In this document: positions 4,611-30,661 of the stretch, piece after piece
Numbering within the stretch: position 1 is the stretch's first letter
How the letters are laid out: every line of letters begins with the position of its first letter
IMG/VR virus record: IMGVR_UViG_3300032309_001437
Coordinates: 1 to 31,937 of that record
Origin: a virus
DNA: 31,937 bases
Strand: one strand, 5' to 3'
Notes under the pieces: generated by a model
The model's input: only the letters and a program-made list of their open reading frames with translations
The model's database searches: none
What the model was told of the DNA's origin: nothing
Made by a program: the position numbers and the translations under genes

Positions 4611-7600
4611 ATGGCCAACGTCAACGGCACCGAGATCAACCTCATGCCCACCAAGGGGATGCGGGCAGAGGCTGAGCGCTACCGCGCCTGGAAAGCCGAG
4701 GGACGCAAAGGCGGCACCTCCGTGGCCGCCCGCCGCGCCACCCAAATCCTCAGCGGTAATGAGCTGAGCCCCGCCACCGTGTTGGTTATGTCCGCCTGGT
4801 TCGCTCGGCATGAAGTGGACAAGCAGGGCGAGGGCTACTCACCGGGCAGCCCCGCTTACCCATCACCCGGCCGCGTTGCCTGGGCCGCCTGGGGCGGCGA
4901 TCCCGGCAAGACCTGGGCCGACGCTAAGGCCAAAACAATAAAAAGCGCCACCGATAGACTGCACAACACAACAACTACGGCTGTCATGGACGCCACCGCC
5001 GATCAGCAACGCGAGCTGACGCCAGACCTTACAGCTCCCCAAGTTGCGCTCTACGAAGCCTTGGAGGAAATTGTCGATGATCTCGGTCAGTTTGATCAGG
5101 GCATTGGCGCTCACGGCGCTCATTACATGCCTGTCAGCCCCTTCGCCAGCGAAGGGATGCAGTGCTCCAACTGCATCTTTTACGCCGGCCCTCGCGCTTG
5201 CGAAGTCGTCGCTGGCGACATCGCCCCCGAAGGCGCCTGCAAGTTCTGGATCATCCCAGAACAGCTGCTCACCCCCCAGGCTGACGCCTCAGCCGAAGGC
5301 CGTACCGCTACCTCTGCCGACGAAGTGCGCCTCGCCGCTAAGTCTGTGCGTGACTACGCAGCCAAACGCGCCGCAGCCGGCGAGCTGAGCGAAGGCGACT
5401 TCGTTGCCTGGCAATCCAGCGGTGGCACGGCCCGCGGCCGCATCGAGCACGTCATGCGTACCGGCACTCTCGGCGTCCCCGGCAGCGACTTCAGCATCGA
5501 CGCCTCCGCCGACGACCCCGCCGCACTCATCCGCATCTACCGCCCTAAGCAGGACGGCTGGAGCGAAACCGAAACCCTCGTAGGTCACAAGTTTTCGACG
5601 CTCCGCAAGATCGAACCCCTCGACGAATCTTCGGACGACGAAGACGACGACCGCACCGCCCCTTCCGACTTAGAGCAACGCCCTTACCCCAACGAACACG
5701 CCGCCCGCCTCTTAGACCCCGGCCAGTTCGACCGCTTCCGCCGCAAGAACAACGATTTCGCCCAAGGTATCGACTCCATTTACGGAATCAAAGGCGACGA
5801 TCCCGTGCGCCTACAAGCCCTACGCTTCGACGCCGCACGCTTTACAGTAAGTGAAGCTAAGAAGTGGCTTAGCGATCACGACTACACGCCCATCTCCTTT
5901 GAGCCCGCTACAGGCAAGTCCATGGACGGCAAAATCGACATCAAGGCCATCAGTAAGGAAGTGCTTAGGCGCGAAGCTCCGCAAGGTCTCCGCGTCGAAG
6001 AAAGCACAGACGCTGGCCTCACCTTTAGCTTCAGCTCCGAGGCGCCCGTGGAGCGCTGGTGGGGCCGCGAGGTGCTGATGCACGATGACGGCGCCATGGA
6101 CCTGGCCCGCATGAACGACGGCGGCCCCTGGCTCTGGAACCACAACCGCGACGTGGTGCTCGGCGTAGCCGAAAAAGCCTGGCTTGGCGACGATCGCCGC
6201 CTCTACGTTAAAACGAAATGGAGCCCCAACACCACCGAAAAAGGCACCGAAGAATACAAGCGTCGTCGTGACATCGAAGCGGGCATCGTCCGCAACGTAT
6301 CCTTCGCCTACGAGATCAACGATGTGCGCGAAGCATCCAACGGCGACATGCAAGTAGTGGGCTGGAACGTTCTGGAAGTCTCCTCAGTAAGCGTGCCCGC
6401 CGACCAGACCGTTGGCCTGGGCCGCGCACTCGACGACACCAACACATCCCCCACGCCACTTACGACGCAAGAAACAAATCAAGCGTCAACCCCTACACTA
6501 GAAACTAAGCAGACCGCCGAGCGCGGAGCTGACTTCCCCCAAGATCCTCCATCCATGGAACAAGCCACCAACGTCCAGGAGGTCCAATCCGCCGCTCGGC
6601 AGTCCGAGCGTGAGCGTGTTGCGGCCATCCGCGCCATGTGCGCCCAGCACCAGATCGGCACCGATCTGGCTGACACCCTCATCGACAACGAATCCACCCT
6701 CGACCAAGCCCGCGAAGCCGTGCTGAACCAAATCGGACGCACCCGCGTCGAAGTCCAAGGTCGCGTCCATGACGACGACTCCGCCGCCCTCGGCCTCACC
6801 GACAAGGAAGTCCGCAGCTTCTCCTTCGTCCGCGCCCTCAACCACCTCATCAACCCCGGCGACCGCGCTGCCCGCGAAGCCGCCGCGTTTGAAATCGAGG
6901 TCGGCAAGGCCGCCGCTGAGAAGTATCAGCGCTCCTCCAACGGCATCGTCATCCCCAACGAAGTGCTCCGCCGCGACCTCGTGGTCGGCACCAGCACCGC
7001 CGGTGGCAACCTCGTCCCCACCGACCTGCTGAGCGGCAGCTTCATCGACCTCCTGCGTAACCGCATGGCGATGATGCAAGCCGGCGTCACCATGCTGAGC
7101 GGCCTCCAAGGCAACGTAAGCATCCCCCGGCAATCCTCCGCCGCCACCGCTTACTGGGTCGGCGAAAACTCCTCGCCTACCGAGAGCCAGCAAGCAATCG
7201 ACCAAGTGAACATGACGCCCAAGACCGTGGGCGCCTTCGTTGACTACAGCCGCCGTTTGCTGCTCCAGGCTTCGGTTGACGTGGAGTCGATGATCCGTGC
7301 CGACCTGGCCAAGATCATCGCCCTTGAGCTGGACCGCGCTGCCATCTACGGCACCGGCTCCACCAACCAGCCCCTGGGCCTGACCAACACCAGCGGCATC
7401 GGCGCTCAGACAATCAGCACCTTCGGCACCTTCGCCGAGTACATCGGCATGGAAACCGACGTGGCCACCGCCAACGCCGACGCCGGCTCGATGCGCTACA
7501 TCATCAACGCCGCCGCCCGCGGTGCCCTCAAGAGCACCAGCCTTTCCGGCACCGAAGCCCGGTTCGTCTACGAGAACGACGAGATCAACGGCTACCCCGT

Positions 7601-7796
7601 GATCGTCAGCAACCAGCTCGGCACCAACGACTGCCTCTTCGGCGACTTCTCCCAGTTCGTCGTGGGCATGTGGTCCGGCCTCGACCTCACCGTGGATCCC
7701 TACGCCGGCTCCACCGCTGGCACGGTCCGCGTCATCGCCCTCCAGGATGTTGACTTCGCGGTCAAGCAACCCGGCGCCTTCTGCTTCGGCACCTGA
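4611..7796 (+). CDS. Fused HK97-type prohead protease and major capsid protein
   Basis: This 1061-residue frame joins proteins that are usually separate. Residues 1-110 are a phage accessory domain (ARHEVDKQGEGYSPG, then GRVAWAAWGGDPG). C185-x2-C188-x8-C197-x12-C210 resembles the cysteine set of a high-potential iron-sulfur protein. Residues about 355-435 (YPNEHAARLLDPGQF; GIDSIYGIKG) are a module often found before prohead proteases. Residues about 440-610 are the S78-type prohead protease, with probable catalytic His511 (LWNHN) and Ser564 (RNVSFAY). From about 649 comes a charged helical delta-like region and then an HK97-fold capsid (TAGGNLVPTDLLSG near 796; YGTGSTNQPLGL). The protease would free the capsid and remove the delta region. 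An in-frame ATG at 6555 (Met649) could start capsid alone, but has no Shine-Dalgarno. The start at 4611 lies in CTTATGGC. Confidence 0.9.
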   Translation: MANVNGTEINLMPTKGMRAEAERYRAWKAEGRKGGTSVAARRATQILSGNELSPATVLVMSAWFARHEVDKQGEGYSPGSPAYPSPGRVAWAAWGGDPGKTWADAKAKTIKSATDRLHNTTTTAVMDATADQQRELTPDLTAPQVALYEALEEIVDDLGQFDQGIGAHGAHYMPVSPFASEGMQCSNCIFYAGPRACEVVAGDIAPEGACKFWIIPEQLLTPQADASAEGRTATSADEVRLAAKSVRDYAAKRAAAGELSEGDFVAWQSSGGTARGRIEHVMRTGTLGVPGSDFSIDASADDPAALIRIYRPKQDGWSETETLVGHKFSTLRKIEPLDESSDDEDDDRTAPSDLEQRPYPNEHAARLLDPGQFDRFRRKNNDFAQGIDSIYGIKGDDPVRLQALRFDAARFTVSEAKKWLSDHDYTPISFEPATGKSMDGKIDIKAISKEVLRREAPQGLRVEESTDAGLTFSFSSEAPVERWWGREVLMHDDGAMDLARMNDGGPWLWNHNRDVVLGVAEKAWLGDDRRLYVKTKWSPNTTEKGTEEYKRRRDIEAGIVRNVSFAYEINDVREASNGDMQVVGWNVLEVSSVSVPADQTVGLGRALDDTNTSPTPLTTQETNQASTPTLETKQTAERGADFPQDPPSMEQATNVQEVQSAARQSERERVAAIRAMCAQHQIGTDLADTLIDNESTLDQAREAVLNQIGRTRVEVQGRVHDDDSAALGLTDKEVRSFSFVRALNHLINPGDRAAREAAAFEIEVGKAAAEKYQRSSNGIVIPNEVLRRDLVVGTSTAGGNLVPTDLLSGSFIDLLRNRMAMMQAGVTMLSGLQGNVSIPRQSSAATAYWVGENSSPTESQQAIDQVNMTPKTVGAFVDYSRRLLLQASVDVESMIRADLAKIIALELDRAAIYGTGSTNQPLGLTNTSGIGAQTISTFGTFAEYIGMETDVATANADAGSMRYIINAAARGALKSTSLSGTEARFVYENDEINGYPVIVSNQLGTNDCLFGDFSQFVVGMWSGLDLTVDPYAGSTAGTVRVIALQDVDFAVKQPGAFCFGT

Positions 7797-10215: not shown

Positions 10216-11379
10216 ATGGCACTCCTCACTCGTAAGCGCCTCCTCCTGGCGGAGATCGAGGGCACCTACGGCTCCGACCCTTCCCCCACGGGCACCGACG
10301 CCGTGCTGGTCCGTGACCTCAACATCACGCCGGTGCAGAGCGAGAGCGTCAACCGTGACCTCGTTCGTCCTTACCTGGGCGCCTCTGAGCAACTGCTCGC
10401 CAACGTTCGCGTCGAATGCACCTTCAGCATCGAACTGGCCGGAAGCGGCACTGCCGGCACCGCCCCCCGCTACGGCTCGATCCTGAAAGCCTGCGGCTTC
10501 GCTGAAACCGCCATCACCCCTGCTGTCACCGGCACCGCCACCGCGGGCGCCCTGAACAGCATCACGCTGGCGGTCGGCTCCAGCGCCACCAACGACGCCT
10601 ACAAGAACCAGATCATCCGCATCACCGGCGGCACTGGCAGCGGCACCGTCGCGCTCATCACCGGCTACGTGGGCTCCACCCGCGTCGCCTCCCTCCGCGC
10701 CCTCGCCGGCAACGTCACCCCTGACAACACCAGCGTCTACAGCATCGGTCTCCAGACCATCTACACCCCCGTCAGCAGCGCTTTCAGCTCGGTAACCCTC
10801 TACTACAACATCGACGGGGTTCTCCACAAGCTCACCGGCGCCCGTGGCACGTTCTCGCTGAACACCACTGTCGGCCAGATCCCGACCCTCGATTTCAGCA
10901 TGACGGGCCTGTACAACGCCCCAACCGACACCGCTGCACCTTCCGTAACCTACGCCGACCAAGCCACCCCGCTCGTCTTCAAGGCAGGCAACAGTGGGGG
11001 CTTCAACCTCCTCGCCTACTCCGGCTGCCTCCAGTCGGTTGCCATGGACATCGGCAACAGCATCATCTACCGCGAACTCGTCGGCTGCACCAAGGAAGTG
11101 CTGCTCACCGACCGTTCGGTGTCCGGCACCGCAACGATCGAAGCACCCACCATCGCACAGAAGGACTACTTCACCACCTCTCTCACCGACAACGCTCTGG
11201 GCGATCTTTCCTTCATCCATGGAACGACCGCTGGTAACATCATCTCGCTGGTTTCCAACCGCGTGGACATCGGAGCGCCCAGCTACTCCGACCAGGACGG
11301 CATCCACATGCTCGCCCTGCCCTACACCGCTGTCCCCTCCACCACCGGCAACGACGAGATCCGCCTGATCTACGCCTGA
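10216..11379 (+). CDS. Major tail tube protein (first copy)
   Basis: This 387-residue protein matches the phage tail tube family (tube_2 type): the N-terminus MALLTRKRLLLAEIEGTYG and the segment RDLNITPVQSESVNRD, then a long series of beta strands. Hexameric rings of it stack along the tape measure to form the tail tube. The gene uses few TAAG/CTTA tetramers (about 2 by eye) and favours C-ending codons, like the capsid part and the gene at 8011, consistent with high production. Downstream lies a paralogue (11428) aligned along almost its whole length. Upstream bases CCCAGG give a weak ribosome site. It is about 1.5 times as long as lambda gpV, so an additional domain is likely. Confidence 0.85.
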   Translation: MALLTRKRLLLAEIEGTYGSDPSPTGTDAVLVRDLNITPVQSESVNRDLVRPYLGASEQLLANVRVECTFSIELAGSGTAGTAPRYGSILKACGFAETAITPAVTGTATAGALNSITLAVGSSATNDAYKNQIIRITGGTGSGTVALITGYVGSTRVASLRALAGNVTPDNTSVYSIGLQTIYTPVSSAFSSVTLYYNIDGVLHKLTGARGTFSLNTTVGQIPTLDFSMTGLYNAPTDTAAPSVTYADQATPLVFKAGNSGGFNLLAYSGCLQSVAMDIGNSIIYRELVGCTKEVLLTDRSVSGTATIEAPTIAQKDYFTTSLTDNALGDLSFIHGTTAGNIISLVSNRVDIGAPSYSDQDGIHMLALPYTAVPSTTGNDEIRLIYA

Positions 11380-11427: not shown

Positions 11428-12684
11428 ATGCCTCTGCTAAGTAATCGCCGGCTGCTCCTCGCCGTAAGTGAAGCCACTTACGGTCAGGATCCGGTGCCAG
11501 GGGCATCCGCAGCCATCCTCGTCCGCGATCTAAGTATCACGCCCATACAGAGCGAATCCGTAAACAGGGACGTGGTACGTCCCTACTTGGGCTCTACTGA
11601 GCAGTTGTTGGCCAACACCCATGTTCAATGTGCGTTCAGCGTCGATCTAACCGGCTCTGGTACGTCCTCCGTAGCTCCCCGCTTCAGTCCCATACTTATA
11701 GCCTGCGGATTCACAGAAACTTACAACTCCTCTGCCACCACAGGCACAGCCACCACAGGCGGCGTTAACACAATTACGCTCGCAGCTTCAGCAAGCTCCA
11801 CCGATAACGCCTATACCAATCTGTTTATCCGCATCACAGCAGGAACTGGCAACGGTAACCTTGGCATTATAACGTCCTATGTAGGCTCCACCAAAATCGC
11901 CACCGTGTGTTACTTAAGCGGTAACGTCACGACCGACAATACGAGCGCCTACGCTATCGGACAGCAGTACACTTATACCCCCGTAAGTAGCGGCTTTGGC
12001 TCAGCCACCATCTACTACAACGTAGACGGCGTACTACACAGACTTACAGGATGTCGTGGGACATTCACCCTAAGCGCAACTGTAGCCGAAATTCCATCTC
12101 TAAATTTCACACTTACGGGTATCTACAATCCGCCTACTGATACAGCGCTGTCTTCCGTGACATACGGGGCACAAGCAACCCCTTTGGTATTCACACACGG
12201 GAATAGCGGCGCTTTCTCTCTGCTCAACTACGCGGCTTGTGTTCAAGAAGTATCTATTGATGTAGGCAACAACATAGTCTATCGTGAACTTATCGGCTGC
12301 AATAAAGAAGTGCGGATCGTAGACCGTATCGTTTCAGGTACAGCCACGATCGAGGCACCCACAATCGCAACAAAAGACTACTTTACCGCTGCACTAAGCG
12401 ACGGCACCCTAAGTAAGCTACAGTTTATTCACGGTAATACTGTTGGCAATATCGTAGGGTTCGCTGCGTCTGGTATTGACATAGACAGTACGTCTTATGG
12501 GGAGACAGATAATATCGTGATGCTGAGCATACCATTTACCTGCATTCCTAGCGCAGCCGCTCCGGCTGAAACAGAGTCTCTGTTGCTTGAAGAGTCCATG
12601 TTTAACGACCTTTACATCTTGGGCTACGGCGAGGTCGCATCCGGCTCTGGCGCGGGGGCAGAGTGCTGCCTGACCTTCGCCTAA
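11428..12684 (+). CDS. Second tail tube-like protein (paralogue with C-terminal insertion)
   Basis: This 418-residue protein aligns with the preceding tail tube protein from MPLLSNRRLLLAVSEATYG to near the end, sharing long blocks such as ITPIQSESVNRD and VVRPYLG. It has an added acidic segment of about 30 residues close to the C-terminus (AETESLLLEESMFNDLYILG, then YGEVASGSGAGAE). The DNA is very different from copy one: about 17 TAAG/CTTA tetramers against 2, and many A- or T-ending codons. This argues for lower expression, perhaps a minor tube protein at the tail tip or neck, or for a copy gained by recombination. No internal stop or frameshift is seen, so it looks functional. Confidence 0.8.
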   Translation: MPLLSNRRLLLAVSEATYGQDPVPGASAAILVRDLSITPIQSESVNRDVVRPYLGSTEQLLANTHVQCAFSVDLTGSGTSSVAPRFSPILIACGFTETYNSSATTGTATTGGVNTITLAASASSTDNAYTNLFIRITAGTGNGNLGIITSYVGSTKIATVCYLSGNVTTDNTSAYAIGQQYTYTPVSSGFGSATIYYNVDGVLHRLTGCRGTFTLSATVAEIPSLNFTLTGIYNPPTDTALSSVTYGAQATPLVFTHGNSGAFSLLNYAACVQEVSIDVGNNIVYRELIGCNKEVRIVDRIVSGTATIEAPTIATKDYFTAALSDGTLSKLQFIHGNTVGNIVGFAASGIDIDSTSYGETDNIVMLSIPFTCIPSAAAPAETESLLLEESMFNDLYILGYGEVASGSGAGAECCLTFA

Positions 12685-19564: not shown

Positions 19565-20361
19565 TTAACTACGGAGCAACAGACTATTCACCTTTTCATG
19601 ACATATACATATTAGACTACAGCTCAGAAGATTACACACCAGAGGATTACGAAAGCGACTTACAAGGAATAGCACCTAGCGCTATTATCGAGCTATTTGA
19701 GCTGCAGATAAACCTGCTACAGCATGGCGCCGATGATACCTTCCGCTTTCACGCCGGCACCAACCTAAACAACAACGGCAATGTGGTATGGGCCGGTAAC
19801 AGCTATCTACAATTCCCCATCGAGGCTGATGGCTTCACTTATGAGGGCAAAGGCACGCTGCCGCGGCCTAATATACGCTGCAGCAACGTAATGGGCACAA
19901 TCACCGCGCTGCTGCTGAGCCTACCTGACGGTCTCTCGGGCGCCAAGGTAACGCGCATCCGTACGCTGGCCCGCTACCTCGACGCGGTGAACTTCCCCGG
20001 CAGCGTGAACCCCTACGGCACGCCGGACCCAACCGCGGAGTTCCCACGCGAGATCTACTACGTGGACCGCAAATCCGTCGAGACGCGCGACGTAGTGGAA
20101 TTTGAACTAGCGGCAGCATTTGACCTGGCAGGTGTTCGCGCACCTAAGCGCCAGTGCATCAGCAACATCTGCCAGTGGAAGTACCGCTCAGCCGAGTGCG
20201 GCTACGTGGGCACCAGCTACTTCAACGAGAACGATCAACCCGTAGCCACCCTTGCGGCTGACGTATGCGGCAAGCGGCTAAGCAGCTGCAAGGCAAGATT
20301 TGGCGCCACTGCCGAACTGCCGTACGGATCCTATCCCGGTGTGGGTACGTTGTTCGCATGA
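19561..20361 (+). CDS. Minor tail protein L-like, probable [4Fe-4S] protein
   Basis: This 266-residue protein starts with GTG at 19561, overlapping M. It is the lambda gpL type tail tip protein. The N-terminal domain contains [20 protein letters not shown] (residues about 45-64), and [20 protein letters not shown] (162-181) is the conserved central piece. The C-terminal domain has C204-x8-C213-x22-C236-x6-C243, the same pattern of four cysteines reported for lambda gpL, which binds an iron-sulfur cluster; an extra Cys199 is present. The surrounding motifs [10 protein letters not shown] and LSSCKARFG are conserved. L helps to close the tip below the tape measure. Its TGA overlaps the ATG of K (ATGA). 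Confidence 0.92.
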
Positions 20362-21083
20362 CCGACTGGCGCACCGCTGCACTCGATCACGCCCAGGCCG
20401 AGGATCCCCGCGAGGCTTGCGGCCTGCTGGTGGTGGTCAAGGGCCGCGAGCGCTACTGGCCCTGCCACAACCTGGCGGTCGGCGTCGAGCAGTTCATCCT
20501 CGACCCGATCGACTACGCCGCGGCCGAGGATGCCGGCGAAATCATGGCGGTGGTTCACAGCCACCCGCGCACTGCACCGCAGCCCAGCCAAGCCGATCTG
20601 GTGGCGATCGAGCGCACCGGCCTCGCCTGGTGGATTGTCAATCCGAAAACCGAGGCATGGAGTCCCGAGCTGCGTCCCACCGGTTACAAGGCGCCCCTGA
20701 TCGGCCGCGAATGGGTGTGGGGGCTCACCGACTGCTGGACGCTGGCGCGGGACTGGTACGCCGAGCACAACCTGCGGCTGCCGGATTGGGAGCGCCCACT
20801 GACGCCAGAGCAGTTTGAGGCCGAGCCGCTGTTCGACCGGTCCTGGCGCGATGCCGGGTTCCGCGAGCTTGATGAAGACGATGAGCTGCAACCGGGCGAT
20901 GCGGTGCTGATGAGCATCAGCGGGCCAGGTCTTAACCATGTCGGCGTCTACATCGGCGACCAGCTGGTGCTCCATCACATCCGCGGCCGGCTCAGCAGCC
21001 GTGACCTTTACGGCGGCTGGCTGATGAAATGCACCGGGCGTAGGCTGCGCCATTACGATGCAGGGAGGCTAGGGCTGGCGTGA
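20358..21083 (+). CDS. Tail assembly protein K-like with JAMM and NlpC/P60 domains
   Basis: The chosen start, ATG 20358, gives 241 residues and overlaps the L stop; an upstream start at 20265 would run deep into L. Residues 1-~105 are a JAMM/MPN metallopeptidase with Glu19 and the full zinc signature H67-x-H69-x7-S77-x2-D80. Residues about 112-241 are an NlpC/P60 cysteine peptidase, with Cys126 (LTDCW) and His194 (LNHVGVYIG). Lambda gpK has the same two domains; it is needed for tail tip assembly and may cut peptidoglycan or process tail proteins. From here to about 23280 the DNA is nearly free of TAAG/CTTA, unlike the genes before. K, I and J are coupled by 4-base overlaps. Confidence 0.92.
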
Positions 21084-21688
21084 TGTTGCGCACGATCCGC
21101 ATCTACGGGCGCCTGGCCAAATTCCTGAAGCGCAGGAAGTTTGAGGCCGAGGTGAGCAGCGCGGCTGAGGCCGTGCGTTTCCTCTTGGCCAACTTCCCGC
21201 AGCTGGAGCAGCACATGGCCGACCAGCATTACCGGGTGAGCGTCGGCAGCTACGACTTGACTGAACAAGAGCTGGGCGATCCGAGCGGCGAGCAGGAGAT
21301 TAAGATCGTTCCCGTCGTAACCGGCGCTGGCACGGTGGGGCGAATCATTGCGGGCGTTGCTCTCGTGGCGTTATCGCTGCTATTTGCCCCCGGCGCAGCA
21401 TTGGCTGGCGGCTTGTTCACGCTCGGCCCCACTGCTGTCTCGATTGGCGTCGGAATTGGCGTGAGCCTGGTGCTCGGCGGCGTCGCGCAGCTGCTCACGC
21501 CTGTGCCGCGAACAGTGGGACCAGGCTCCACCAGCGACACGGTGAAGGATCCCCGCAAGAGCTACAGCTTCTCGGGCATCCAGAACACCAGCCGCCAGGG
21601 CCTGCCGGTGCCGATCGTCTACGGCGAGACCCTGGTGGGCTCGGTGGTGATCTCGGCCGGCATTGACACCGTGCAGGTGGCCGGATGA
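21080..21688 (+). CDS. Tail assembly protein I-like
   Basis: This 202-residue protein corresponds to lambda gpI. Residues 1-~80 form a ubiquitin-like beta-grasp segment ([20 protein letters not shown], then [20 protein letters not shown]). Residues about 85-140 are Gly/Ala-rich and hydrophobic ([36 protein letters not shown]). The tail ends in [20 protein letters not shown], a motif typical of the group. gpI is required for making the tip and is thought to be processed, but its final place in the virion is unclear. A GGGAGG ribosome site lies at about 21063-21068. ATG 21080 overlaps K; ATG 21083 is a second possible start. Its stop overlaps the J start. Confidence 0.9.
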
Positions 21689-24600
21689 GCAGGATCGCCG
21701 GTGCTGGTGGTGGCGGATGCTTTCTCGGGCACACGCTGATTCGCACGCCTGACGGGCAGCGTCCTATCGAAGCGCTGCAGCCTGGCGACCTTGTGGTCAG
21801 CTTCGATGACCGTGGCGAGCTGCACCACGCCAAGATCCTCATGGTTCACATCCACGAAGGCGAGCGGGTCAACCGCTATCGCCTCTGGGGCGGTGCCGTC
21901 TTGGATGCCACGGCCAACCACTGGGTACTGAACCAGTTCAACGCCTTCGTGGAGATCGACACGCTCGGCCCCGACGATTGCCTGGTGGATGAGAACGGCC
22001 ACCTGCGTCCGATCGTGGACCGCTCTGAGTTCTGCGTCGGCACCGTCTACAACCTGACCGTCGAGGGGCATCACACCTTCATCGCCGGTGGGATCCGCGT
22101 TCACAACGCCGGCCTCGGCCTCGGTATTGCCGGCGCAGGCGGTGGCGGCGGCGGCAAAGGCGGCGGCGGCGGCGAAACCTACACGCCTACCGAAGCTGGC
22201 GACAGCCTCAACTCGACCCAATACGCCAATCTGGTGGATCTCATCAGCGAAGGCGAGATCGAGGGCCTGAAAGACGGCTTCAAGTCGGTCTTCATCGACA
22301 ACACGCCGCTGCAGAACCCGGATGGCAGCTTCAACTTCCAGAACCTCGCCGTCTACACGCGCAACGGCACGCAGAACCAGAGCTACGTGCCGATCGCTGC
22401 CGACGTTGAGAACGAGGTTGGCGTCAACGTCACGGTGCAGCAGGCCACGCCTGTGGTGCGCAGCATCACCGACACCACAGTGAACGCCGCGCGTGTGACG
22501 ATCACCGTACCAGCGCTTCAGCTGTTCACTGACAAGGGCGACATCGAGGGCACTGATGTGCGCTTGCAGATAGCCGTGCAGTACAACGGCGGCGGCTACG
22601 GCACCGTGATCGACGACACGATCGCTGGCCGCACGGGTGATCAGTATCAGCGCGACTACTTGGTGAACCTGTCCGGCGCCTTCCCAGTGAACATCCAGGT
22701 GACGCGGATCACGGCGGATAGCAACAGTGCAAAGCTGATCAATGCCTTCAGCTGGTCAAGCTTCACCGAGATCACCTACGCGAAGCTGCGCTACCCCAAC
22801 AGCGCATTGGTGGCGGTGCGGGTGGATGCCGAGCAGTTCAGCTCGATCCCCAGCCGCTCCTATCTGATCCGCGGCATCAAAGTTCGGATCCCGAATAACG
22901 CCACGGTGGACGCGGTTACCGGCCGGTTGATTTACGCCGGCATCTGGGGTGGCACGTTTGGTGCCGCGCAGTGGTGCTCCGACCCCGCCTGGATCCTCTG
23001 GGATCTGCTCACCTCCACCCGCTACGGCTTTGGCGATCACATCCAAGCCGCGCAGCTGGACAAGTGGGCGTTTTACGCCGCGAGCCAGTACGCCTCCGAG
23101 CTGGTGCCCGACGGTTTTGGCGGAACCGAACCGCGCTTCTCCTGCAACGTCAACATCCAGACCGCCGAGGAGGCTTACAAACTCATCAACGATCTGTGTT
23201 CCACCTTCCGGGCGATGCCCTACTGGAGCGCAGGCGCACTCACCATCAGCCAAGACAAGCCCAGCGACGCTGCGTATCTCTTTACATTGGCCAATGTATT
23301 GGAGGATGGCTTTAGCTACCAAGGCGGCAGCCTTAAGACACGCCCGACGGTAGCAGTGGTCAGCTACCTCGACCTGAGCCTACGCGACATTGCTTACGAG
23401 GTTGTCGAGGACCAAGCAGCCATAACTAAGTACGGTGTAATCACAACAGAAATTAGTGCGTTTGCTTGCACCAGTCGAGGTCAAGCTGCGCGTATAGGGG
23501 AATGGCTGCTCTATTCCGAGCAGTACGAAAGTGAGATAATTAGTTTTACTGCCTCTATCGACGCGGGCGTGGTGGTACGCCCCGGTCAAATTATCGAGGT
23601 AGCCGATCCGGTACGCACCGGTACGCGACGTGGTGGAAGGATTGTCTCCGCTACCACAGCAGCAATAACCGTAGATGACGCCGCTAGCCTGGCGATGGGC
23701 TCTAACACCACTCTCTCAGTCATCCTCCCCACCGGTACTGTTGAAAGTCGCGCTGTAACGACCATTACAGGCAACGTAATTAGCTTAGCCACTCCGCTTA
23801 GTGTAGCACCAAACGCTAATAGTGTATGGATTTTCCAGACCAGCACCATCCAAACTTCGACGTGGCGAGTTCTGTCAGTGCAAGAGCAGGATGGTGCGCA
23901 GTACGCCATCAGTGCCTTGGCCTACAACGCCAGTAAGTATGCGTATATCGAACGCGGTCAAGCGCTCCAGGTGCGAGATATTACTGATCTGAACATTATT
24001 CCTGAAGCGCCAACTAACCTGCAAGCTACCGAGACTCTTTATGAGCTAAACGGTAGAGCACTGTCTAAGCTAATCATTAGCTGGCAGCCAATCAACGGTG
24101 TAAATCAGTACCGCATTCGTTGGAGACCTAAGAACGGTAACTGGACGAGCACTACACAAGCACGTTTTGATTACGAAATTTTAGACACTGCTGCGGGTAC
24201 TTATGAAGTACAAGTTTATAGCCTAAACGCAGGACTAAGACAATCAGTCGAACCGGCCCAGCTTACCGTACAGGCATATGGCAAAACCGCCCCACCTGCA
24301 AGTGTTAGCGGCGTAAGCCTAATACCTATAGACGAAGCAAGCGCAATTTTAAGCTGGGATCGTGCACCCGATCTGGATGTTTTGCTTGGCGGCAAAGTCC
24401 TTATTCGCCATAACGTGCTTATGGTCGGCGCTGTATGGGAAAACAGTCAAGAAATTGTTGCCGCTGCGGCTGGTAGTCAGACACAAAAACAAGTACCACT
24501 GCTGGAAGGCACCTACCTACTCAAGTTTGAGGACGACAGCGGTAATCGCTCGGTGTCAGCATATGCGGTGGTGATTGATCAACCGACACCACAGCCACGG

Positions 24601-25383
24601 TTGCAAGTACAAAGCTACCGCGAGGATCAGGAAACCCCTCCATTTTCCGGCAACTACACCGATATGTTCTACAGCGACGATCTCGATGGTTTGGTGCTGA
24701 GCAGTGGCGTGCTTGTGGACACCTTGGCCACCGACGGAAATTGGGATGCACTCGGCAGCCTCGACAGCATCGGCGGCGTGCTGAGCACCGGTGAGTATGA
24801 GTTTGGTAGCACGCTAGATATTGGCGGGGTATTCGATATGAACCTCACCCGCCACTTCGTCACGCGCCCATATCTGCCGGCCTCCCTGTGGGACGACAAA
24901 TCGGGAGAGATCGACACTTGGCCCGAGATTGACGAGAACAACCTGGACGGTGTGAACGCTCTGCTCTACGTCCGCACAACTGAAGACGACCCCGGCGGCA
25001 CCCCGACATGGGGTTCTTGGCGGGAATTCAGCAATGCGATCACTCGTGGCCGCGGGTTCCAGTTCAAGACTATCGCTACCAGCACCGATCCTGCCCAGAA
25101 CATTGTCATTGATGAGCTTGGTTGCCAACTAGAAATGCAGCAGCGCGTCGAGCAATCCGCCGCTCTCACAAGCGGTGCCGCCACGTATGCAGTAGTCTTT
25201 ACCAATCGGTTCTACCAACCCCCCAGCGTTGGTATCACAGGCTACAACATGGCTACCGGCGACTACTTCACGATCGCATCCGTGACACGGGCAGGATTCG
25301 ACGTAACATTCAGGAACAGTAGCAACGCTGCCGTGAGCCGCCAGTTCACCTACACCGCCATCGGCTACGGCCGGGAGATCTGA
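21685..25383 (+). CDS. Tail tip attachment protein J-like with embedded Hint domain
   Basis: This 1232-residue protein is the central tail tip/host specificity protein that contacts the receptor. After 11 residues ([11 protein letters not shown]) comes a Hint/intein-like domain, residues 12-141 (separate entry). J proper resumes with a Gly-rich linker and the hallmark DSLNSTQYANLVDLISEGEI (about 171-190), then DGFKSVFIDNTPLQNPDG. Further J pieces are PAWILWDLLTSTRYGFGDHI near 433 and the tip beta domains. Fibronectin type III-like domains span about 772-970 (APTNLQATETLYELNGRA; SGVSLIPIDEASAILSWDR). The C-terminal ~230 residues are a likely receptor-binding domain. The DNA style changes near 23280 to TAAG-rich and again near 24600, so the gene looks mosaic. 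Lambda J is 1132 residues; subtracting the Hint gives 1102. Confidence 0.95.
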   Translation: MSRIAGAGGGGCFLGHTLIRTPDGQRPIEALQPGDLVVSFDDRGELHHAKILMVHIHEGERVNRYRLWGGAVLDATANHWVLNQFNAFVEIDTLGPDDCLVDENGHLRPIVDRSEFCVGTVYNLTVEGHHTFIAGGIRVHNAGLGLGIAGAGGGGGGKGGGGGETYTPTEAGDSLNSTQYANLVDLISEGEIEGLKDGFKSVFIDNTPLQNPDGSFNFQNLAVYTRNGTQNQSYVPIAADVENEVGVNVTVQQATPVVRSITDTTVNAARVTITVPALQLFTDKGDIEGTDVRLQIAVQYNGGGYGTVIDDTIAGRTGDQYQRDYLVNLSGAFPVNIQVTRITADSNSAKLINAFSWSSFTEITYAKLRYPNSALVAVRVDAEQFSSIPSRSYLIRGIKVRIPNNATVDAVTGRLIYAGIWGGTFGAAQWCSDPAWILWDLLTSTRYGFGDHIQAAQLDKWAFYAASQYASELVPDGFGGTEPRFSCNVNIQTAEEAYKLINDLCSTFRAMPYWSAGALTISQDKPSDAAYLFTLANVLEDGFSYQGGSLKTRPTVAVVSYLDLSLRDIAYEVVEDQAAITKYGVITTEISAFACTSRGQAARIGEWLLYSEQYESEIISFTASIDAGVVVRPGQIIEVADPVRTGTRRGGRIVSATTAAITVDDAASLAMGSNTTLSVILPTGTVESRAVTTITGNVISLATPLSVAPNANSVWIFQTSTIQTSTWRVLSVQEQDGAQYAISALAYNASKYAYIERGQALQVRDITDLNIIPEAPTNLQATETLYELNGRALSKLIISWQPINGVNQYRIRWRPKNGNWTSTTQARFDYEILDTAAGTYEVQVYSLNAGLRQSVEPAQLTVQAYGKTAPPASVSGVSLIPIDEASAILSWDRAPDLDVLLGGKVLIRHNVLMVGAVWENSQEIVAAAAGSQTQKQVPLLEGTYLLKFEDDSGNRSVSAYAVVIDQPTPQPRLQVQSYREDQETPPFSGNYTDMFYSDDLDGLVLSSGVLVDTLATDGNWDALGSLDSIGGVLSTGEYEFGSTLDIGGVFDMNLTRHFVTRPYLPASLWDDKSGEIDTWPEIDENNLDGVNALLYVRTTEDDPGGTPTWGSWREFSNAITRGRGFQFKTIATSTDPAQNIVIDELGCQLEMQQRVEQSAALTSGAATYAVVFTNRFYQPPSVGITGYNMATGDYFTIASVTRAGFDVTFRNSSNAAVSRQFTYTAIGYGREI
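21718..22107 (+). other. Hint (intein-like, A-type BIL-like) domain inside J
   Basis: Residues 12-141 of J have the full Hint pattern: Cys12 as first residue (CFLGHTLIRTPDG), block B T76-x2-H79 (ATANHW), block F VYNLTVEGHHTF, and terminal VH140-N141. At 130 residues there is no room for a homing endonuclease. The residue after Asn141 is Ala, not Cys, Ser or Thr, so classic splicing lacks its second nucleophile; bacterial intein-like domains of this kind mainly cleave at their ends. The peptide IAGAGGGG flanks the domain on both sides (residues 4-11 and 148-155), as if the domain lies in a duplicated linker. Predicted cuts would free an 11-residue peptide and expose Ala142 as a new J N-terminus. 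Activity is inferred. Confidence 0.9.
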
Positions 25384-28575: not shown

Positions 28576-28865
28576 CATCCGTGAGTGTGAGCGGGCTTAC
28601 GAGCACCGTAAGCGTAACAACGGATGACAACAAAACTGTTGTTGTACCCGTACCCGTAACCACCGTCATTACGGCTACTACGGTAGGGCCGCAAGGCCCT
28701 CAAGGAGCGCAGGGCTTACCGGGTGAATCCGGCACCAGCACCGGCAGCCCCACCTTCATCCAAACAACGCAACCCACCAGCGGCGAACTAGGCGGCGCAA
28801 CGAAGTACGCCTGGTGGGACACATCTGGCGGCGACCTTACACTTTGGATTGAGGACGGCATCTAA
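28572..28865 (+). CDS. Collagen-like fibre protein
   Basis: This 97-residue protein has a Val/Thr-rich N-terminal part (residues 1-37), then a short run of Gly-X-Y triplets (GPQGPQGAQGLPGESG, residues 39-54), and a C-terminal segment with PTFIQTTQPTSGELGGATKY and WWDTSGGDLTLWIEDG. The Gly-X-Y run would trimerise as a short collagen helix. The WWDTSGG-LTLWIEDG end is common in phage fibre proteins and resembles a tip motif. It overlaps both its neighbours (ATGA before, TAATG after), so the three are made together and may form one fibre. TAAG/CTTA are common in this gene. Confidence 0.75.
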   Translation: MTSVSVSGLTSTVSVTTDDNKTVVVPVPVTTVITATTVGPQGPQGAQGLPGESGTSTGSPTFIQTTQPTSGELGGATKYAWWDTSGGDLTLWIEDGI

Positions 28866-30661
28866 TGGCACTTCGCAACGCTTTTGGGGCGCTCGCCCTT
28901 GACGCCACAGTCACTGCAATCAAGACCTGGCTGGAGGACCGCACTGGCGCGAAGACCACCGCCAACAGCATCTCCGTCAACATCGCCAACGACCAAACCG
29001 TGCCGGTTAGCGGCAGCGTGTCAATCAGCGGCACGCCAGCTGTAACCGGCCCCCTCACCGACACTCAACTCCGCGCCGCAGCGGTTCCCGTAAGCGGGCC
29101 ACTCACAGACGTTCAGCTTCGTGCGACAGCCCTGCCCGTAAGTGGCAGCGTGTCGATCAGCGGCACACCCTCGGTGTCGATCAGCGGCACGGCTGCCGTA
29201 AGCGGCCCGCTTACGGACACACAACTCCGCGCCACGGCGGTGCCTGTAAGCGGTACGTTCTGGCAGGCGACACAACCGATCAGCGGAAGTGTTTCGATCA
29301 GTGGAACCCCTGCGGTCACTATCAGTGGAACCCCCACGGTCTCCGGCCCGCTGACCGACACTCAGCTGCGAGCCACGGCGGTGCCGGTGAGCGGCACGGT
29401 GACGGCCAATGCTGGCACCAACCTCAACACATCGGCGCTGGCACTGGAAACCGGCGGCAACCTGGCCACGCTGACCGGCCGCGTGCCGGCCCAGGGTCAG
29501 GCGCTGATGGCGGCCTCGCTGCCGGTGGCGATTGCCTCGAACCAATCAGCGCTGGCGGTGAACAGCACACCGGCTGCGGCACTGCTCACCACCTACAACG
29601 TGGCGGGCGTCATCACCATCAACACGGTGCTGGCAACGCTCGACTGCTCGCAGTACCGGAGCGTGTCGATTCAATGCACCTCCATGGGCACCAGCGGCGT
29701 GGTAACGCCGGAATGGAGCAATGACAACGCCACCTGGCTTGGTGCCACGATTCTCACGCAGGCTGGCGCCACGGTTACCACGTTCAACGCTGCTGGCTTG
29801 TGGGTGGCGCCTGTGCTGGCGCGTTACCTGCGGCTCAGGCTGAGCACCGCCACCACGGCTGGCACCACAACGCTGAGCATCCACCAGTTCGACGACGGCC
29901 GTCAGTTCTGGCTGGCTACGCAGCCAGTCTCAGGCACAGTTACCAGCAACATCGGCACCGGCACCGTTGCAGCCGTGACCGCTGCCAACCTGGCGCTGCC
30001 GGGCATCATCACGGATGTGGCCTCAGCGGCGTTGACAACAACCACGACCACGGCGGCATTCACACCGACGTTTGGCACCAGCTACAGCGTCAGCATCCCG
30101 GTTACCGCAGTCACCGGCACCACACCGACGCTGGATGTGGCCATCGAGGAATCCGACGATTCGGGCACCAACTGGTTCAAGGTCTACGACTTTCCCAGGA
30201 TCACAGCGGCCGGCATGTACCGCTCACCGCTGATCAGGATTGTTGGCAACCGGGTGCGATACGTGCAGACCGTGGGCGGCACCAGCCCGAGCTTCACCAG
30301 GGCGATCAACCGCCTACAGAACAGCAACAGCGCTGAAGCCGTGCGCCAGCTGATTGACCGCTCGATCGTGCTGACCACGCTCAACTCGACGACGCCAAGC
30401 CTCGATACCAGAGATGCTGGCAACCGCGCCCAGCTGGTGGTCAACATCGGTGCTGCCACCACCGCCCCTGCGCTTCAGATGGAAGGTTCAGACGACAACG
30501 GAGTCAGCTGGTATTCAATCGGCACACCGCTCACCGCTGTGGCCAGCTCCACGGTGCAGCTGACAGTGGTGGACATTAACGCTGCACTGATGCGCGTCAG
30601 GGTGAGCACCGCCGGTTCAGGCGTCACCGCTGGCTACGTGATGATCAAGGCACACGACTGA
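28865..30661 (+). CDS. Long fibre protein with PVSG repeats and three beta domains
   Basis: This 598-residue protein has a short N-terminal helix (ALDATVTAIKTWLEDRTGAK), then residues about 46-177 of repeats built from GPLTDTQLRA (four copies), PVSG and SVSISGTPAV units, likely a beta-helical or trimeric fibre shaft. The rest has three beta-sandwich-like domains, about 259-342, 405-482 and 522-598, each with a strand-turn such as SNDNATW, SDDSGTNW or SDDNGVSW. The middle one is alike to the decoration-like protein at 8011. The repeat section is TAAG-rich in its first part and the DNA from about 29300 to the end lacks TAAG/CTTA, so the gene may be a recombinant. Likely a receptor-binding fibre. 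Confidence 0.8.
   Translation: MALRNAFGALALDATVTAIKTWLEDRTGAKTTANSISVNIANDQTVPVSGSVSISGTPAVTGPLTDTQLRAAAVPVSGPLTDVQLRATALPVSGSVSISGTPSVSISGTAAVSGPLTDTQLRATAVPVSGTFWQATQPISGSVSISGTPAVTISGTPTVSGPLTDTQLRATAVPVSGTVTANAGTNLNTSALALETGGNLATLTGRVPAQGQALMAASLPVAIASNQSALAVNSTPAAALLTTYNVAGVITINTVLATLDCSQYRSVSIQCTSMGTSGVVTPEWSNDNATWLGATILTQAGATVTTFNAAGLWVAPVLARYLRLRLSTATTAGTTTLSIHQFDDGRQFWLATQPVSGTVTSNIGTGTVAAVTAANLALPGIITDVASAALTTTTTTAAFTPTFGTSYSVSIPVTAVTGTTPTLDVAIEESDDSGTNWFKVYDFPRITAAGMYRSPLIRIVGNRVRYVQTVGGTSPSFTRAINRLQNSNSAEAVRQLIDRSIVLTTLNSTTPSLDTRDAGNRAQLVVNIGAATTAPALQMEGSDDNGVSWYSIGTPLTAVASSTVQLTVVDINAALMRVRVSTAGSGVTAGYVMIKAHD
29048..29374 (+). repeat. Four GPLTDTQLRA-coding repeats in the fibre shaft
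   Basis: Copies lie at 29048-29077, 29096-29125, 29204-29233 and 29345-29374. Peptides are nearly identical (one has V for T) but codons differ strongly between copies, so protein sequence is kept while DNA has diverged. SVSISGTP units stand between them. Confidence 0.9.

Follow-up and report, generated by a model that had tools for sequence, protein, structure and literature searches.

In Hint domains, Cys1 and a TxxH motif generate a thioester at the N-terminal junction and a His-Asn pair cyclizes and cuts the C-terminal junction, and joining of the exteins requires Cys, Ser or Thr at position +1 (PMC7765530, PMC5874633). A-type bacterial intein-like domains (BILs; Amitai 2003, Dassa 2004) are, in the passages cited here, usually placed in variable regions of non-conserved bacterial proteins (PMC7765530, PMC5874633). 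Where they have no +1 nucleophile they can splice by an alternative route, as one of these passages reports from Dassa 2004 (PMC5874633). The TerL inteins of phiCbK are phage Hint domains with real exteins on both sides and Ser at +1 (PMC3556154).

Here we describe a Hint domain near the N-terminus of a lambda J-like tail tip protein, encoded in a 31,937-nucleotide stretch of virus DNA from IMG/VR (the window). The phiCbK inteins also lie in a phage gene, but that gene is not J. Lambda gpJ itself (8iyk, 9e7m) aligns in its core from residue 159 of the window's protein; it has no Hint domain and starts directly at a Gly-rich segment. Like A-type BILs, the J Hint combines the Hint fold, Cys1 and a C-terminal His-Asn with no nucleophile after it and no endonuclease, and it has in common with them a predicted C-terminal cleavage without obligatory ligation. 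The C-terminal His-Asn is found in 118 of 118 copies, and none of the 118 has Cys, Ser or Thr at +1. Unlike A-type BILs, it occupies a single fixed position in a conserved phage hub, is highly conserved and has intein-like presence/absence alleles. Because a conserved hub is not the variable-protein context of A-type BILs, we call the domain A-type-BIL-like rather than a member of that group.

Mini-inteins (Ssp/Npu DnaB, 1mi8 and 4o1r; Mtu RecA, 2in0) have the same fold as the J Hint (Z about 21-22) and the same blocks A, B, F and G, and they resemble it in empty-site alleles and in self-removal, which for J is predicted. They differ from the J Hint in two respects: its +1 residue is Ala, and its N-extein is a dispensable leader of 11-15 residues whose motif is repeated downstream. 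Of the class 1 intein features, Cys/Ser at position 1, TxxH and HN are all present in J, and the +1 Cys/Ser/Thr is replaced by Ala. The best Foldseek matches are intein-like domains outside the ordinary inteins, namely Tetrahymena BUBL1 BIL2 (6y75, 6tmm) and a Clostridium thermocellum BIL (2lwy), which occur in other host proteins and organisms and are 23-27% identical to the J Hint.

The J gene and its neighbors

The J gene adjoins gpL-, gpK- and gpI-like genes in the order found in lambda.

20265..21083, + strand: gpK-like protein (PHROG 30, E 1.8e-84; PHROG 2635)
21080..21688, + strand: gpI-like tail assembly protein (PHROG 32, E 2.8e-48)
21685..25383, + strand: J-like tail tip / central fiber hub protein, 1232 aa, with an N-terminal Hint domain (ORF; PHROG 31; Pfam FNIII-A_GpJ)
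22159..25383, + strand: canonical J (lambda J residue 2 aligned to window residue 159 in 9e7m/8iyk; NF049904 lambda_TipJ)

PHROG 31, 'central tail fiber J', matches residues 156-963 of the window's J with an E of 3.6e-250, and the Pfam FNIII-A_GpJ match has an E of 8.3e-38. The Hint domain thus precedes the start of canonical J, at about residue 158. The ATG of J overlaps the stop codon of gpI as ATGA (21685-21688). A separate small gene for the Hint was ruled out, since domain and J form a single ORF and the same ATG/gpI-stop overlap occurs in Hint-less J genes. In lambda, the gpI family is described as a ubiquitin-like plug of the tail tip (PMC1779556, PMC10721106). The gpK-like translation carries JAB-like HSHP and NlpC/P60-like motifs; a JAB motif pattern, itself ill-suited, matched gpK in neither Hint-bearing nor Hint-less loci.

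Elsewhere in the window, a 1061-residue ORF (4611-7796) matches both head maturation protease and major head protein families, making it a fused protease-capsid gene. Two consecutive genes (10216-11379 and 11428-12684) both belong to the PHROG 290 tail protein family, a tandem duplication, and a 598-residue ORF 3' of the tail genes (28865-30661) has no PHROG match.

The Hint domain and its predicted cleavage

A first-pass annotation of this DNA had read the start of J as a complete Hint domain with Cys12, TxxH, block F and a terminal His-Asn, followed by a non-nucleophilic Ala as in A-type BILs. All of these elements are in place.

21685..21717, + strand: N-flank leader, residues 1-11, like the N-terminus of Hint-less J alleles (sequence comparison)
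21718..22107, + strand: 130-residue Hint domain (C12-N141) that lacks an endonuclease insert (profiles, predicted fold)
21718..21720, + strand: Cys12, the N-S acyl shift residue at Hint position 1 (invariant, 118/118)
21910..21921, + strand: T76-A-N-H79, block B TxxH (invariant, 118/118, once L288 is shifted in register by one residue)
21979..21981, + strand: Cys99, a second invariant cysteine (alignment of copies)
22045..22080, + strand: block F, VYNLTVEGHHTF, residues 121-132, with His130 invariant (alignment of copies)
22102..22110, + strand: H140-N141 / A142, predicted site of Asn cyclization and cleavage (HN, +1 A and +2 G in 118/118), with the H140-N141 codons at 22102-22107 and Ala142 from 22108

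The excised domain exceeded two curated Pfam cutoffs, that of Hint_2 (28.4) with 32.6 bits and that of PT-HINT (27.7) with 28.4 bits. NCBIfam intein_Cterm also scored above its cutoff of 15.6, at 25.3 bits. The Pretoxin HINT profile (PF07591) was matched by all 57 aligned sequences at E<=0.01, although here the J hub follows the domain in place of the adjacent toxin of that family. A family profile retrieved the BIL 2lwy with an E of 2.7e-26. Comparison of a structure prediction with known Hint folds, as proposed in the first-pass annotation, led to the same identification: an AlphaFold model from an alignment of 57 diverse sequences (pLDDT 96.5, pTM 0.90) has the horseshoe fold of the Hint superfamily, and it superposes on mini-inteins, BILs and the Hedgehog Hint with VIA-align Z scores of 20-22 and an rmsd of 1.3-1.7 over 125-133 residues. 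By profiles and model, residues 12-141 of J are a complete 130-residue Hint/intein-like domain.

The domain is under strong constraint. All 118 distinct J copies share Cys12, TxNH, His130, His140, Asn141, Ala142 and Gly143; the most distant of these copies is ~57% identical to the window across the Hint region, and HN-AG is also found in 17 of 17 Hint-bearing loci from a second sample of J. Pairwise comparisons of the Hint gave a dN of 0.10, a dS of 0.71 and a dN/dS of 0.13, and the J core of the same pairs, represented by its first 200 residues, gave a dN/dS of 0.21 and a dS of 0.75. Purifying selection is thus stronger on the Hint than on the J core. We could rule out a degenerate or relic Hint, as the catalytic residues are all intact and constrained, and also a canonical splicing intein, as +1 is Ala in 118/118.

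Based on these sequence features, we consider it likely that the Hint is an A-type-BIL-like N-terminal cassette, autocatalytically removed from J and exchanged between J backgrounds. The J precursor would consist of a Gly-ended leader of 11-15 residues, the Hint, and AGLGx IAGAGGGG..K.. running into the J core. Once the Hint had folded, His140 and Asn141 would catalyze Asn cyclization and cut the chain before Ala142. The predicted released J starts with AGLGLGIAGAGGGGGGK, which is Gly-rich and close to a Hint-less allele. Because +1 is always Ala, we expect the domain to behave like A-type BILs and to cut without having to ligate. That J loses the Hint and starts at Ala142, as the first-pass annotation had suggested, is the most likely outcome, predicted from the invariant His-Asn and the +1 Ala.

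At the other end of the domain, Cys12 and TxNH would activate the Gly11 bond as a thioester. Both the Gly-ended leader and Cys12 are conserved, though C-terminal cleavage alone would not require either, and the invariance of Cys12 suggests that the N-junction is activated as well. The leader would probably also be hydrolyzed off, or, as has been reported for A-type BILs, occasionally be religated to the freed Ala142. Invariant Cys12, the Gly before it in 117 of 118 copies and a GCF junction like that of Hedgehog and BILs, along with the alternative splicing route that the cited passage on A-type BILs without a +1 nucleophile describes (PMC5874633, citing Dassa 2004), could also speak for a splicing or ligating element, in which the Gly11 thioester reacts with the Ala142 amine, once freed, of its own J chain or of a different one, or is passed to another virion protein. 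We regard this as rather improbable: canonical splicing requires Cys, Ser or Thr at +1, where all 118 copies have Ala, and the J N-terminus is already supplied by the downstream copy of its motif, so that joining is not needed.

Several residues outside the known splicing motifs are also invariant, among them H55, H57, Cys99, R138 and most of W80-F88 (within 21847-22098). They exceed the apparent need of self-cutting and hint at a partner or trigger. Such conservation could be expected of a Hint that folds, is never cut and remains on the virion as decoration, and cleavage is so far a prediction. This is nevertheless very improbable, given that the whole catalytic set is invariant in 118 copies, as are the +1 Ala and the +2 Gly, and that other J alleles cleanly lack the domain.

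Presence, absence and exchange of the cassette

The first-pass annotation called for a search for Hint domains at the same place in other J homologs, and hundreds of IMG/VR contigs carry one: 453 relatives were found with a Hint query and 560 with an alignment query, a more remote query reached Hint copies ~57% identical to the window (Hint region), and the best 80 of about 450-590 contigs were taken per search. No Hint was found in J among 50,697 phage genome records of cultured phages. Among the 84,980 genomes of bacteria and archaea scanned there was a single close relative, a 7057-base contig (L082) of a MAG labelled Cyanobacteria. Its size and match position are identical to those of an IMG/VR virus contig (L074), and it probably represents viral DNA that ended up in a bacterial bin. 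With no cultured carrier and one MAG match, Hint-in-J belongs to uncultured phages and apparently not to common prophages; a prophage or host gene was set aside on the basis of the lone match.

To sample J irrespective of its N-terminus, we used J-core-only searches, which are blind to the Hint. Among the matches listed, the Hint was present in 39 of 80 loci of the window's J lineage (35 of 76 newly named loci plus L012, L013, L021 and L022, all four Hint-bearing) and in 17 of 76 loci with a readable N-terminus in a second J lineage. Hint-less alleles have a clean empty N-terminus, M..IVGAGGGGGGKGGGG, and start at the Gly-rich motif (MNKIVGAGGGGGGKGGGG and MTESKYIAGAGGGGGGKGGGG are examples). 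The complete J N-termini of both samples included no decayed Hint. If J can work only once an inserted Hint has removed itself, full and clean-empty alleles are the only ones expected, and its clean absence in close relatives makes the Hint look like a self-removing cassette, not like an indispensable tail component.

The sequences around the Hint point to how the cassette could come and go.

21694..21716, + strand: left direct repeat, residues 4-11, IAGAGGGG (23 nt, 83% identical to 22126-22148)
22108..22125, + strand: AGLGLG, in Hint-bearing alleles only (allele comparison)
22126..22148, + strand: right direct repeat, residues 148-155, IAGAGGGG (23 nt, pairs with 21694-21716)
22126..22173, + strand: IAGAGGGGGGKGGGGG, second copy of the J N-terminal motif, running into the J core (allele comparison)

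IAGAGGGG does flank the Hint on both sides, as first noticed from the window alone. Within each lineage, the left copy looks like the start of the empty alleles, and the right copy continues into the J core. On the left, IVGA is the most frequent motif (27/113), and on the right, IAGA (65/113); since left and right are identical in 25 of 113 copies, the motifs are not simply kept equal. AGLG(LG) occurs only with the Hint and so belongs to the cassette, which ties its conservation to the cutting unit. The two IAGAGGGG copies represent a duplication of the J N-terminus, and the cassette between them is subject to gain, loss and exchange. It sits in a Gly tract at the J start, and from the flanking repeats we infer that it is gained or lost by recombination of the duplicated Gly-rich motifs; recombination between the left and right direct repeats would yield an empty allele. 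In two loci (L053 and L171) the J start has the Gly tract 5' of the Hint in another frame (RRWWWWRGCFLGH), which suggests slippage or a sequencing error in the G-rich repeat.

On a tree of J cores, the distribution of the Hint requires 10 changes, at least 5 of them forced by starred branches; the far part of this tree was picked for having the Hint, so that only its near part is informative. One pair of sisters, L211 and L167, shows an empty and a filled site. The two are near-identical as far as RIFGAGGGGGGG and then diverge, with homology back at RTPTEA (90% identity, 993 nt); both read ATGAGCAGGATCTTCGGCGC.GGTGGTGGCGGCGGCGG, and one then has the Hint. Strong splits in the Hint tree conflict with strong core splits in 6 of 10 cases, although these are quick trees in which single splits are unreliable. 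Additionally, 18% of pairs have a Hint dS that is less than half the core value, and the reverse holds in 2%. Taken together, tree conflict and dS asymmetry show that the cassette moves between J backgrounds, at least sometimes, and it would spread by such exchange.

We found no support for two suggestions of the first-pass annotation, that self-cutting is a maturation clock and that the tip is ligated to another protein. Both are weakened by the frequent absence of the Hint, which roughly half of the close J relatives in the window's lineage and three quarters of those in the second lineage do without. Because Hint-less relatives already have a cleavage-like N-terminus, no general tail-assembly step depends on the Hint. 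A related idea is that the Hint is a regulatory pro-domain, which blocks docking of the J N-terminus with gpI, gpL or gpH until folding, trimerization or another trigger, and so serves as an assembly timer or quality check. The Hint does lie on a hub protein next to gpI, which touches J in the lambda tip (PMC10721106), its constraint extends well beyond the catalytic motifs, and the invariant Cys99 could sense redox state. Set against this, the relatives without a Hint have the same gpI and gpK neighbors, and we found no difference elsewhere in the tip genes between Hint-bearing and Hint-less loci. We therefore consider a regulatory pro-domain unlikely. Its more specific form, in which J is kept from assembly until a partner binds at W80-F88 or the redox state changes at Cys99, is a shade less likely again.

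What a self-removing cassette in J would mean

The open-licence PMC literature on Hint domains, inteins and BILs together with phage tails held no report of an intein-like domain at the N-terminus of a lambda-J hub. Hint domains in phages are already known; what we did not find in the open literature searched is a Hint, predicted to be cleavage-only, fixed near the J N-terminus and having intein-like allele dynamics. The Alcaligenes phage Afa-NA1 encodes a collagen-like tail protein (L137:4032-5462) with a Hint ending VHN-MDDSGYETKRKY. This is also a phage virion gene, but its Hint is C-terminal and not in J. Salmonella phage Sen-NF (H84) has a match similar to the Afa-NA1 protein. BFVD holds Hint annotations in uncultured phage proteins, the top match being a 1016-residue uncultured virus protein, putative gp62. 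A Nitrospiria contig (L086:1200-2500) contains at least three tandem Hint domains with NKG or NKGGGGGC spacers, followed by a Gly/Ser-rich stretch and a hydrophobic C-terminal segment, and resembles BUBL-type arrays.

If the cassette removes itself from J as we predict, a cut after Asn141 alone gives nearly the N-terminus of an empty allele; ligation is then unneeded, and the element is tolerable in an essential protein. It would stay harmless because cutting alone restores a native-like N-terminus, and it would persist by virtue of deleting itself from a structural protein that is essential. If the Hint were instead a regulated pro-domain, some phages would time tail initiation by self-proteolysis and their relatives would not.

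A self-removing J Hint would be an intein-like element that has neither a homing endonuclease nor a splicing nucleophile, yet is a mobile allele in a virion structural gene. It would offer a testable case for the persistence and spread of cleavage-only Hint domains, and a naturally occurring collection of C-terminal self-cleaving tags in which +1 is Ala.
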